This document shows positions 34,834-44,822 of a stretch of 64,000 nt of DNA, in pieces. Within the stretch, counting starts at the first letter, position 1; each line of letters opens with the position of its first letter. The DNA comes from Mycobacterium paraffinicum. Lineage in GTDB: Bacteria > Actinomycetota > Actinomycetes > Mycobacteriales > Mycobacteriaceae. The notes below the pieces were generated by a model. That model had not been told where the DNA came from. It saw only the letters and a list, made by a program, of their open reading frames with translations, and did no database searches. Position numbers and translations under genes: made by a program. Location: the NCBI RefSeq assembly GCF_001907675.1, contig NZ_MPNT01000026.1, positions 1 to 64,000 of the forward strand, given 5' to 3'.

Positions 34834-34853
34834 TTCGGGACTTCCGCCCCTAC
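34834..34853 (+). promoter_or_regulatory. DosR (DevR) box-like sequence upstream of the DUF1876 gene
   Basis: The 20 bases from TTCGGGACTT match the published 20-bp DosR consensus TTSGGGACTWWAGTCCCSAA at 15 positions, with the first ten perfect. It ends 33 bases before the ATG at 34887, a promoter-proximal position expected for DosR activation. Confidence 0.6.
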
Positions 34854-34886
34854 TGCGGCCCCGCCGCGCAATGGTCGCATCTGGTG

Positions 34887-35168
34887 ATGACGAAGAACGA
34901 CGACGCCACCAAGGCCTGCCACATCGACGTGCTGGTCGAGGAGCGCGACGAAAAGACGCGGGCGAAGGCGCGACTGTCCTGGCAAGGCAAGACGCTCGTC
35001 GGCGTCGGCCTGGCACGACTCGACCCCGCCGACGAGCCCGTGACCGCGATCGGGGACGAGCTCGCCGTCGCCCGTGCGCTGTCCGACCTGGCCAACCAGC
35101 TGTTGGCTGCGACATCGGTAGATATTCAAGCCAGCACGCACGAGCCCGTCACGGGCCTGCACCACTGA
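34887..35168 (+). CDS. DUF1876 protein (Rv2632c/Rv1738-like dormancy protein)
   Basis: A 93-aa protein of the DUF1876 family: HIDVLVEERDEKTRAKARL, LVGVGLARLDPAD, ELAVARALSDLANQLL. M. tuberculosis Rv2632c has about this length. Rv1738, the other member there, is strongly DosR-induced and its structure resembles ribosome hibernation factors. ATG at 34887 was chosen; the frame is open further upstream but that part includes the DosR-like box and lacks family similarity. The RafH-like gene follows after 12 bases, which suggests a joint function on the ribosome during hypoxia. Confidence 0.85.
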   Translation: MTKNDDATKACHIDVLVEERDEKTRAKARLSWQGKTLVGVGLARLDPADEPVTAIGDELAVARALSDLANQLLAATSVDIQASTHEPVTGLHH

Positions 35169-35180
35169 CCGGGGGACACG

Positions 35181-35984
35181 ATGAGACAACGACCCGATCT
35201 TCCGGCCGCCTTCGACGTCGAGGTGACGACGCGCGGCCAGTTGCCCGGGGCCGACGAATACGCGCGGACGAAGATCGGCGAGCTCGGCCACCTCTCCCAC
35301 GAGCCGGTGCTGTACGCCCACGTCAAGTTGAGCGAGCACGGTGACCCGGCGGTCGCCCGCCGGGTGATCGCGCAGGCCAACCTCGACGTCAACGGCCGGC
35401 TGGTGCGTGCGCAGGTCGAAGGCGTCACGGCGCGGGAGGCGATCGACCGACTCGAGGCGCGGCTGCGCCGTCAACTGGAACGCGCCGGCGAACATTGGGA
35501 AGCCAAGCGCGGTGGCATGCCACGGCGCGGCCCGCACGAGTGGCGGCACGAAAGCGAGCCGACGCACCGGCCGAACTATTTTCCGCGACCGGACAGCGAA
35601 CGCCGAGTCATGCGGCACAAGTCATACAGCCTGCTCACCTGCACGGTGGAAGAGGCCGCGCTGGAGATGGAGCAGCTCGATTACGATTTCCACCTGTTCA
35701 CCGAGAGGAACACAGGGCAGGACAGCGTGCTATATCGCGAAGGGCCGGCCGAATACCGCCTGGCACAGGTCAATCCGGTGGCCGCGCAGGAACTGGCGCC
35801 GTTCGAATTGCCGTTGACCCTCAGCCCGCAGCCGGCCCCGCGCCTCGACATCGATCAGGCCATCGAGCGGATGAGATTGCTCGGCCTGCCGTTCCTGTTC
35901 TTCGTCGACACCGCCCGCGACCGCGGCAACGTGTTGTATCACCGCTACGACGGACACTACGGGCTCATCACACCGGCGACGTGA
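35181..35984 (+). CDS. Ribosome hibernation factor, RafH-like (HPF/S30AE family)
   Basis: A 267-aa long-form hibernation factor resembling M. tuberculosis Rv0079 (RafH, also reported as a dormancy-associated translation inhibitor). The N-terminal third (about 1-105) is the HPF/RaiA domain that binds the small subunit (VLYAHVKLSEHGDPAVARR, shortened here, and REAIDRLEARLRRQLERAG). The C-terminal part contains two related segments, HKSYSLLTCTVEEAALEM and LDIDQAIERMRLLGLPFLFF, each resembling the S30EA C-terminal domain. It follows the DUF1876 gene by 12 bases and should share its DosR-like promoter. Confidence 0.85.
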   Translation: MRQRPDLPAAFDVEVTTRGQLPGADEYARTKIGELGHLSHEPVLYAHVKLSEHGDPAVARRVIAQANLDVNGRLVRAQVEGVTAREAIDRLEARLRRQLERAGEHWEAKRGGMPRRGPHEWRHESEPTHRPNYFPRPDSERRVMRHKSYSLLTCTVEEAALEMEQLDYDFHLFTERNTGQDSVLYREGPAEYRLAQVNPVAAQELAPFELPLTLSPQPAPRLDIDQAIERMRLLGLPFLFFVDTARDRGNVLYHRYDGHYGLITPAT

Positions 35985-36091
35985 AACGCCGATAGGCCAA
36001 CCGAATCCGCGGCGGTCCCGGCATCCCCCCGTCCGGGACCGCCGCCCCAAACTTCGCTCTCCTGCAACGCGAACAGGCCGGTATCGGGGCG

Positions 36092-43180: not shown

Positions 43181-43264
43181 AACCGCCATGCTCCTTTGTT
43201 CAACCGGAACCGCATGCCAAATTACGTGAGAAGGCCCCGGTATTCCGTCACGCGGAGATTGCGG

Positions 43265-43284
43265 ATCGGGCCCAAAGTCATCAC
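43265..43284. promoter_or_regulatory. DosR box-like sequence between small gene and S2P protease
   Basis: The 20-mer containing CGGGCCCAAAGTCAT matches the DosR consensus at 14 positions. It lies in the 234-base divergent promoter, 84 bases from the leftward start and 130 bases from the protease start, and could serve both. Confidence 0.5.
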
Positions 43285-43414
43285 CGCCGACCGGCCGCGG
43301 CGATTGCCGCACGCCGGGGTCAAACGACCCTAGTAGCAACCGAAGCGTCGCACTACCTTCGGACACGAGGCGGCGGGCGGACCGCCTGCCCGCAACGACT
43401 TTGGGAGGTTCGAG

Positions 43415-44575
43415 GTGCGCGATGCGATCCCGATTGGGCGGATCGCCGGCTTCCCGGTGAAGGTCCACTGGAGCGTGCTGGTGATCCTGTGGTTGTTCAC
43501 CTGGAGCCTGGCCAGCATGCTGCCCGGCAGCGTCAAGGGGTATTCACCCGCCGCCTACTGGGTGGCCGGGGCGTGCGGCGCGCTGGTGCTGTTGGCGTCG
43601 CTGGTGGCGCACGAACTCGCGCACGCCGTCGTCGCCCGCCGCGCCGGGGTGCCCGTGGGCAGCGTGACGCTCTGGTTGTTCGGTGGAGTCACGACGCTCG
43701 GCGGCGAAGCGAAGACGCCGACGGCGGCCTTCCGGATCGCGATCGCCGGCCCGGCCACCAGCCTTGCGTTGGCGGCCGTCTTCGGCGGCCTGGTCGCTGT
43801 CCTGCCGGTGGTGGGTGTATCACCGATCGCGATCGGGGTCGCGTCGTGGTTGGCCGGCATCAACATGCTGCTGGGCCTGTTCAACCTGCTGCCCGGCGCA
43901 CCGTTGGACGGTGGGCGGGTGCTGCGGGCATTCCTGTGGCGCCGCCACGGCGACAGCGTGCGCGCCAGCATCGGCGCCGCGCACGCCGGGCGGGTGGTCG
44001 CCTTCGTCCTGATTGGCTTGGGGCTGGCCGAGTTTCTGCTCGGCGGTCTGGTGGGTGGGGTCTGGTTGGCGTTCATCGGTTGGTTCATCTTCGCCGCCAG
44101 TCGCGAAGAGGAGACGAGGATTTCGACCCAGCAGATGTTTTCCGGGGTGCGCGTGGCCGACGCGATGACCGCCCGCCCGCACACCGCGCCCGGATGGATC
44201 ACCGTCGACGATTTCGTCCAGCGCTATGTGCTCGGCGATCGCCACTCCGCGTACCCGGTCGTCGACCAGAGCGGGGCGATTTCGGGTCTGATCACGTTGC
44301 GCCAGTTGCGTGACGTCGCGCCCGATCGCCGCGCCACCGCCACCGTGGGGGAGATCGCGCAGCCGCTGCCGGAGGTGCCGTCCGGCGCACCGCAGGAGCC
44401 GCTCACCACCCTGCTGGAGCGGATGGCCCCCGCCGGTCCGCGCAGCCGCGCCCTGGTGTTCGACGGCGGCCAGGTGGTCGGCATCGTGACGCCGACCGAT
44501 GTGGCCCGGCTGATCGAGGTCTACCGGCTCGCTCACCCCGAGGGCGCGAATTCGGCTCCGGCTCAAAGCATTTAG
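43415..44575 (+). CDS. Site-2 protease (M50) with CBS domains, Rv2625c-like
   Basis: A 386-aa membrane metalloprotease like DosR-regulated Rv2625c. Six or so hydrophobic helices fill residues 1-220. The zinc site is VAHELAHAVVARR (HExxH, near residue 65) and the third ligand is in NLLPGAPLDGGRVL. Two CBS modules occupy residues about 245-375 (VADAMTARPHTAPG and GIVTPTDVARLIE), which usually bind adenosine nucleotides and regulate activity. The substrate is unknown. GTG at 43415 follows GGGAGG by six bases. M. tuberculosis has Hrp1 (Rv2626c) beside this gene; it is absent here. Confidence 0.92.
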   Translation: MRDAIPIGRIAGFPVKVHWSVLVILWLFTWSLASMLPGSVKGYSPAAYWVAGACGALVLLASLVAHELAHAVVARRAGVPVGSVTLWLFGGVTTLGGEAKTPTAAFRIAIAGPATSLALAAVFGGLVAVLPVVGVSPIAIGVASWLAGINMLLGLFNLLPGAPLDGGRVLRAFLWRRHGDSVRASIGAAHAGRVVAFVLIGLGLAEFLLGGLVGGVWLAFIGWFIFAASREEETRISTQQMFSGVRVADAMTARPHTAPGWITVDDFVQRYVLGDRHSAYPVVDQSGAISGLITLRQLRDVAPDRRATATVGEIAQPLPEVPSGAPQEPLTTLLERMAPAGPRSRALVFDGGQVVGIVTPTDVARLIEVYRLAHPEGANSAPAQSI

Positions 44576-44669
44576 ATCGAGACCTCGCCGTCAGGGTTTA
44601 CCGGTCACGGTTGCTTGCGATGCCGGCGGAACCGTGTTGTTACAACCAACCTTGTGTAAACTCTCTCGC

Positions 44670-44822
44670 ATGACGTGCGTGATCGGGAACGCGTGCATCG
44701 ACGTGATGGGACGAGACGCCCCCCTCGGGTCACCGGGCGGCGCGGCCAAGTTGGATCCGATAGGTGTAGACACTCCTTTGCTGGCCGTTCACCCGGGGGC
44801 CGGCCAAGCGGAAGGAGTGTGA
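44670..44822 (+). pseudogene. fdxA: fdxA remnant with the ferredoxin core deleted
   Basis: A 50-codon ORF whose first 13 residues, MTCVIGNACIDVM, match the start of mycobacterial ferredoxin FdxA (from memory MTYVIGSECVDVM), and whose continuation GRDAPLGSPGGAAKLDPIG with VDTPLLA matches the C-terminal tail of FdxA. About 65-70 residues carrying nearly all Cys ligands are missing at a clean in-frame junction, so no Fe-S cluster can form. FdxA (Rv2007c) is a DosR-regulon ferredoxin, which fits the neighbourhood. The ORF stays open and ends eight bases before the next start, so it may be translated, or may simply be a relic. Confidence 0.7.

Follow-up and report, generated by a model that had tools for sequence, protein, structure and literature searches.

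Gene content of the island

The window, as the whole stretch analysed here is called, consists of 64,000 nt of Mycobacterium paraffinicum DNA (contig NZ_MPNT01000026.1, assembly GCF_001907675.1), and all coordinates are positions within it. Ten genes at 34.7-44.6 kb form an island that resembles a locus of the regulon controlled by DosR, the dormancy regulator of M. tuberculosis. On the 3' side of these genes lie a 62-aa fdxA remnant and then a regulator gene, which is termed Rv2621c-like from its position (Table 1). The Rv2627c-like protein of the island is 94-95% identical to those of isolates E183, E1747, and ACS4054 and 91% identical to that of M. seoulense; the nearest genome found, G247, shows 90-92% DNA identity wherever the region can be aligned. 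M. scrofulaceum, M. seoulense, and the isolates E183 and E1747 are close relatives of the organism, which, to judge from them, probably grows slowly.

Table 1. Genes and DosR-like boxes of the island. Box counts are the loci with a box upstream of the gene among the loci carrying that gene; sm, small protein; aa, amino acids; pLDDT and pTM, AlphaFold scores.
Feature	Position	Strand	Evidence and remarks
DosR-like box, 5' of DUF1876-RafH unit	34834..34853		12.1 bits; box in 14/19 loci with DUF1876 gene
DUF1876 / Rv2632c-like protein	34887..35168	+	PF08962, E 2e-28; reading frame open from 34731, start 34887 probable
RafH-type ribosome hibernation factor	35181..35984	+	PF16321+PF02482 (S30AE + S30AE_C); PDB 8WHX, E 2e-113
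Acyl-CoA synthetase, FadD family	36092..37912	-	PF00501, E 1e-73; best NCBIfam match FadD11, under cut-off
DosR-like box, 5' of FadD gene	38020..38039		17.2 bits; box in 29/32 loci
sm113, small conserved protein, 87 aa from ATG 38334	38071..38334	-	profile search; box in 22/24 loci
Weak site, divergent sm113/Pat promoter	38413		9.5 bits
DosR-like box, divergent sm113/Pat promoter	38458..38477		13.7 bits; box 5' of Pat in 25/26 loci
Island Pat, second cAMP-type lysine acetyltransferase	38664..39647	+	PF00027+GNAT; NF058543, 484 bits; 55% to 4AVA
sm89, small helical protein, predicted two-helix hairpin	39672..39941	-	pLDDT 79, pTM 0.51; box in 27/28 loci
DosR-like box, sm89/Rv2627c-like divergent promoter	40012..40031		15.0 bits
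DosR-like box ending 34 bp 5' of Rv2627c-like gene	40101..40120		16.6 bits; box in 36/36 loci
Rv2627c-like alpha/beta hydrolase	40154..41413	+	PF09752 (ABHD18 hydrolase); several named homologs are alpha/beta hydrolases; position in L172
WS/DGAT, 14 bp 3' of hydrolase	41428..42822	+	TIGR02946, 330 bits, cut-off 310
sm84, small helical protein	42926..43180	-	pLDDT 78, pTM 0.59; box in 27/27 loci
DosR-like box, sm84/S2P divergent promoter	43265..43284		14.1 bits
DosR-like box, sm84/S2P divergent promoter	43314..43333		13.5 bits
Rv2625c-like M50 site-2 protease with CBS domains	43415..44575	+	PF02163+PF00571; box in 16/30 loci
fdxA remnant, internally deleted, open 62-aa frame	44634..44822	+	longer fdxA in the same place in L009, L165, L001

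A Pfam scan of the island proteins recovered the DUF1876, S30AE+S30AE_C, AMP-binding, cNMP+GNAT, ABHD18, WS_DGAT, and M50+CBS domains. The S30AE protein matches RafH (PDB 8WHX) over residues 12-266 of 267. An earlier note, made from the sequence without searches, had grouped DUF1876, RafH-like, Rv2627c-like, WS/DGAT (wax ester synthase/diacylglycerol acyltransferase), and Rv2625c-like site-2 protease (S2P) genes here, and the Pfam and structure matches bear out this grouping. The WS/DGAT protein exceeds its NCBIfam family cut-off. By reading, the catalytic-looking motifs (HHxxxDG in the WS/DGAT, HExxH in the S2P, and GxSxG in the hydrolase) are intact. The acyl-CoA synthetase is, by its matches, a member of the FadD family. 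Its best NCBIfam match (NF038343, FadD11) scores 390 bits against a cut-off of 950, and the FadD15 label of the earlier note was supported by no test here.

To judge from its Pfam-matched part, the DUF1876 gene probably starts near 34887; this would place the 34834 box 5' of the gene and outside the coding region. The suspected fdxA remnant proved to be one: only N- and C-terminal pieces are left, while L009, L165, and L001 keep most of fdxA at this place. In view of these longer copies, a functional small gene was rejected.

As for the small proteins, the sm113 profile matched 1631 of 7992 scored candidates. The named ones among the 120 matches listed are "hypothetical protein", and none of the matches listed bears the name Rv2628. 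A resemblance of sm113 to Rv2628 is a tentative lead. With the same profile, no match was obtained in L172 or L174, and those in L173 and L175 were at chance level (E 0.045-0.086). A fold search of sm84 and sm89 against PDB gave no match at E 0.001 or better. In L173 (13800-14905), an sm84-like gene lies directly 5' of a gene for a RafH-like protein of 34% identity, and boxes are present at 14631 and 14963; sm84 thus accompanies RafH in another lineage.

DosR-like boxes in the window

The boxes were sought with a symmetric matrix refined by iteration from the published DosR consensus, TTSGGGACTWWAGTCCCSAA (PMC2275270). The 174 training sites (162 unique) came from 71 of 154 loci, namely 27 dosR loci (L110-L136) and 44 distant Rv2627c loci (L035-L045, L047-L072, and L074-L080); the window, L001-L034, L046, L073, L081-L109, and L137-L154 were excluded from training. 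A first matrix, trained with the window and its clade, was discarded as circular.

The trained matrix found seven sites of at least 10 bits in the window, at 12.1-17.2 bits. All are in island promoters, and none is in the other 54 kb. In order of falling score, they start at 38020, 40101, 40012, 43265, 38458, 43314, and 34834. The eighth-best site, the weak one in the sm113/Pat promoter, is also in the island, and the best site outside the island scores 9.1 bits. A box of at least 11 bits is present within 300 bp of all eight island transcription units, compared with 1 of 28 other units (Fisher p 3e-7, an optimistic value since three divergent pairs share boxes and the eight units rest on five promoter regions). 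The sole non-island unit with a box is an EthR-like gene, which shares the one at 34834; no other non-island unit exceeds 7.2 bits. The EthR-like gene (34022-34669) is divergent from the DUF1876 gene and encodes a TetR regulator whose C-terminal domain is that of EthR (PF21313).

The earlier note had counted at least six box-like sites, three of them matching 14-15 of 20 consensus positions. Consensus counting confirmed exactly three island sites at 14-15/20 (34834, 40101, and 43265). The 13/20 site at 36032, which has convergent genes on either side and is missing from the matrix sites of at least 8 bits, was dropped as probably due to chance. A strict consensus with up to three mismatches gave no match in the window. 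Equally good matches in coding sequence, which the earlier note had regarded as fatal to its proposal, do occur by plain consensus counting, but the trained matrix gave none of at least 10 bits outside the island.

Could the boxes have arisen by chance in an ordinary co-location of lipid and stress genes? Thirty Markov-1 random sequences of the window's make-up contained on average 3.3 sites of at least 10 bits and 0.93 of at least 12 bits per 64 kb, with a best score of 16.0 bits. Since random sequences also yield high-scoring sites, a single box proves little, and the clustering is the evidence. However, the distribution of seven sites inside the island and none outside, together with their recurrence at the same promoters in relatives, stands against chance. 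The conservation data described below already contradict this explanation, which we consider hardly credible.

Conservation of the boxes in other mycobacteria

Footprinting covered 36 loci, the window and 35 relatives (L018 and more distant loci were left out), and sites of at least 9 bits within 300 bp upstream were counted. The order of the genes, like the boxes, is repeated in other Mycobacterium species. Boxes recur upstream of the FadD, sm113, Pat, sm89, Rv2627c-like, and sm84 genes at the frequencies given in Table 1; these counts are not independent of one another, as the two genes of a divergent pair have boxes in common and the species are related by descent. Among the control genes, a box was found upstream of the WS/DGAT gene, the second in its operon, in 0/36 loci, of the flanking Rv2621c-like gene in 3/18, and of the RafH gene in 6/17. 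The three loci with box-like sites 5' of the Rv2621c-like gene are L014, L019, and L020 (13-16 bits), and the regulon may extend there.

In promoter alignments, which covered 17-20 hand-chosen loci, the box core was more conserved than the rest at the four promoters (0.75 vs 0.66, 0.90 vs 0.78, 0.89 vs 0.69, and 0.92 vs 0.72). In just two of these four, the sm89/Rv2627c-like and the sm84/S2P promoter, does the top-ranked conserved stretch of 14 bases overlap a box. A scan of G247 with a loose pattern derived from the matrix gave 73 matches in 5.5 Mb, and all four matches on contig C19 fall in the island, for which the Poisson probability is 1e-5 with a stretch of 10 kb. The reversed pattern gave 205 matches in the same genome; therefore, only the clustering counts, not the number of matches. 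G247 has neither sm89 nor a high-scoring site at the counterpart of the window's 40012 box.

The regulator in relatives

DosR is present in 20 of 20 relatives searched, with 86-95% identity to the M. tuberculosis protein, and a DosR match with an E-value of 1e-100 or lower was found in 254 of 297 genomes sampled across the genus, G247 included. K182 lies in a DNA-contact motif that is kept in 50 of 56 DosR-family loci; the six exceptions are the lower-identity copies L104-L109.

The boxes might instead serve another NarL-family regulator, such as a DosR paralogue or the regulator at 25787-26443. A second DosR-like protein, 67-73% identical to M. tuberculosis DosR, was found in 5 of the 20 relatives (L104-L108 in G016, G011, G012, G015, and G013), and the regulator at 25787 also matches DevR in PDB 3C3W (E 2e-30). 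However, G001-G010 have the island with boxes, each with a single DosR match at E 1e-40, and the matrix, which grew from the DosR consensus of PMC2275270, keeps its G-rich/C-rich palindrome with a near-invariant G and C core. This makes another regulator an improbable owner of the boxes. The gene at 25787 forms part of a pair of a NarL-type response regulator and a DUF5931 histidine kinase (25787-27594), which differs from DosRS by similarity.

A reduced island

The corresponding block of M. scrofulaceum (L009) is larger than the island of the window. It adds genes for a baeRF protein, an AMP-binding/acyl carrier protein (ACP)/acyltransferase protein, a HAD hydrolase, a second WS/DGAT, an HSP20 protein, and a ribonucleotide reductase large chain with an ATP cone, as well as a full fdxA. 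Pfam and PDB give the family only; we take the HSP20, reductase, and fdxA products of L009 to be hspX-, nrdZ-, and fdxA-like and baeRF to correspond to Rv2629. The three-domain AMP-binding/ACP/acyltransferase protein (L009:6707-9496) occurs in full-size islands, and fragments of it are found in L172 near 10172-10579. The island content varies over 37 loci, and a compact form is common to the window, G247, and E183. The baeRF, AMP-ACP-acyltransferase, HAD, second WS/DGAT, hspX-like, and nrdZ-like genes were not found in the island of the window, L165, or L001. At E 1e-25, the L009 HSP20 was found in 3 of 7 genomes and not in G247, G001, G003, and G010; at E 1e-60, the L009 reductase was found in 2 of 7 and not in G247, G001, G002, G003, and G010. 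In close relatives, the compact form is thus the result of genomic loss rather than relocation, within the search thresholds used.

The order of the remaining genes was compared with that in L172 of G118, a 4.5-Mb genome with one of the DosR proteins closest to that of M. tuberculosis (96% identity). The order in L172 is S2P, WS/DGAT, Rv2627c-like, AMP-ACP-acyltransferase fragments, baeRF, and DUF1876, and the window genes shared with it are colinear. The Rv2621c-like, S2P, Rv2627c-like, and DUF1876 genes, and baeRF where relatives have it, follow one another as they do in L172 and in the DosR locus Rv2621c-Rv2632c on the H37Rv map of M. tuberculosis. The FadD, Pat, and small island genes were not found in L172. 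In the 36 loci, these extra genes are widespread, with FadD-like genes in 32 and Pat in 26. The suggestion in the earlier note that they may be additions of this lineage needs correction: they are extra relative to L172 of G118, but they are shared by many species and do not belong to this lineage alone. The lineage itself has mostly lost genes.

Such losses might mean that the island is a decaying relic, a former DosR island losing genes and boxes with little function left. The broken fdxA, the genes missing from the islands of the window, L165, and L001, the failure to find hspX-like and nrdZ-like genes in the genomes named above, and the lack of sm89 and of the strong box there in G247 would fit this explanation. 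In contrast, nine remaining island proteins are 87-99% identical to their G247 counterparts, and a box of at least 11 bits is retained at every one of the eight window units. A relic is therefore very improbable in our judgement.

Other differences from the M. tuberculosis locus are that RafH, FadD, Pat, and WS/DGAT genes are found inside the block of the window, together with the broken fdxA and without the baeRF gene. RafH, which matches 8WHX over nearly its full length, is placed behind DUF1876. No universal-stress or stand-alone CBS protein was found among the ten island proteins scanned with Pfam; Rv2623, Rv2624c, and Rv2626c are proteins of these two types.

A second acetyltransferase in the island

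The island Pat contains a cyclic-nucleotide-binding (cNMP) and a GNAT domain by Pfam, and its NF058543 score is above the curated cut-off of 460. Two cNMP-GNAT genes are present in 9 of 9 relatives searched. Identity to MtPat (Rv0998, PDB 4AVA) is 74-79% for the non-island copy and 52-55% for the island copy, and the non-island copy is the closer of the two to 4AVA in all nine genomes. This means that the island Pat is, by these comparisons, distinct from the Rv0998 ortholog. A Pat of some kind was found at E 1e-60 in 292 of 297 genomes sampled across the genus. By a hand count of the matches listed, 31 genomes have a copy with an E-value of 5e-126 or lower and 63-96% identity to the island Pat.

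In a tree of 58 sequences, the island-type Pats form a clade of 32 (29 distinct) with a support of 0.96. L188 and L189 score nearest to the island type; they have a full-length lid, lie outside the clade, and are not among the 32. Island Pat and Rv0998 share the cNMP + GNAT layout. E89 and R98 of the cyclic AMP (cAMP) site and the catalytic E235 are kept in all 58 aligned sequences, the window's included, and the clade keeps E89, R98, R223, and E235 in 32/32. The lid is one residue shorter in 32/32, and His173 is found in 0/32. In the 24 Rv0998-type copies, position 173 is His in 17, Pro in 5, Gln in 1, and Thr in 1. His173, taken here to have a role in the lid, is weakened as a mark of cAMP control, since seven of the 24 Rv0998-type copies do not have it.

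Position 173 is Pro in M. smegmatis Pat. This enzyme is stimulated by cAMP only about 3-fold, compared with a strong effect for Rv0998, and a pseudo-substrate segment autoinhibits it as well (review, PMC8556138). Loss of His173 alone therefore does not abolish autoinhibition. That the island Pat depends only weakly on cAMP may reasonably be predicted, but no more than that.

In M. tuberculosis, Rv0998 acetylates K182 of DosR, in vitro even without cAMP, and dampens DosR (PMC5861037; also PMC5999986). The acetyl-mimic K182Q hardly binds DNA, and the acetylation of DosR that persists in a mutant lacking Rv0998 led to the postulate of a further acetyltransferase (PMC5861037). It is tempting to suppose that DosR induces its own lysine acetyltransferase, with the short lid loosening cAMP control, and that this enzyme acetylates K182 of DosR and the neighbouring FadD, so as to limit or end the dormancy response. 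We regard this feedback loop as tentative and rather unlikely. M. tuberculosis is not known to have a dedicated gene for such a transcription-acetylation loop. Hypoxia lowers K182 acetylation in M. tuberculosis, which disfavours a simple early brake; a late or recovery role would fit.

Interpretation

Taken together, the island is best read as a reduced counterpart of the DosR locus that M. tuberculosis has around Rv2621c-Rv2632c, carried by a species akin to M. scrofulaceum, with a probability of about 0.87. The central claim of the earlier note, a DosR-regulon-like island with its own promoter boxes, is upheld and strengthened by the independently trained boxes, the footprinting, the gene order, and the presence of DosR in all relatives searched. 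ChIP-seq (chromatin immunoprecipitation sequencing) in M. tuberculosis located DosR at Rv2623, Rv2626c, Rv2627c/Rv2628 (two sites), and Rv2629 (PMC2812949). The two predicted boxes at the window's Rv2627c-like gene match the two sites reported there.

Several observations weigh against this assignment. The separation of sites is lost at 8 bits, with 8 island and 7 outside sites for the 71-locus matrix, 7 vs 3 for a matrix trained on dosR-flank loci alone, and 8 vs 8 for one trained on distant Rv2627c loci alone. Consensus counting, which the matrix replaced, discriminates poorly: 14/20 is attained by four non-island sites as well, and 33 positions assigned to coding sequence in the 64 kb score 13 or higher, the 34834 box being among them only through the too-early called DUF1876 start. 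Box recurrence is weaker at the S2P (16/30) and DUF1876 (14/19) genes, and the G247 counterpart of the 43265 box, one of two in the S2P promoter, scores only 6.1 bits. The DosR of the window's organism is presumed from that of its relatives. Finally, M. avium, also a slow grower, has DosRS-dependent hypoxia genes with boxes, but its regulon comprises 13 genes with no triacylglycerol synthase among them; in Table 1 of that report, where some entries are listed as hypothetical, no annotation corresponds to any of the island genes (PMC11876180). Since the M. avium regulon is small and has no such synthase, the content of a regulon varies and cannot be assumed.

The following scheme of DosR binding, hypoxic induction, functions, and substrates is a prediction from sequence. 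Under low oxygen or nitric oxide, phosphorylated DosR would bind the seven palindromic boxes, thereby inducing each of the eight transcription units. RafH would then park ribosomes, and the acyl-CoA synthetase, WS/DGAT, and alpha/beta hydrolase might store and remobilise lipid, with the S2P protease, DUF1876, and the three small proteins assisting. The island Pat might trim the response by acetylating acyl-CoA synthetases and possibly DosR.

Two other clusters were seen in the window. An aromatic-compound degradation cluster adjoins the island (29412-34031) and encodes the alpha and beta subunits of a ring-hydroxylating dioxygenase, two protocatechuate-type dioxygenases, and a Lyase_1 protein. 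A sulfatase and formylglycine-generating enzyme pair (1397-4607) has a gene between them labelled GntR-like from sequence reading only.

Among the published titles and abstract openings surveyed, none dealt with this island or the second Pat, and the parts of PMC10034137 and PMC7916490 consulted contain no description of either. Priority is not claimed; earlier box predictions are likeliest in Gerasimova et al. 2011. What seems to be new is a variant content of a known DosR locus with one unexpected resident, the island Pat.

The hypoxia regulon thus appears to have been remodelled among non-tuberculous mycobacteria, with large islands carrying hspX-, nrdZ-, and fdxA-like genes in some and compact ones in close relatives. 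The island Pat, with DosR-like boxes nearby in 25/26 loci, is a concrete candidate for DosR acetylation. If the boldest reading of this enzyme were true, it would be a built-in brake driven by DosR itself, and this is the part worth testing.

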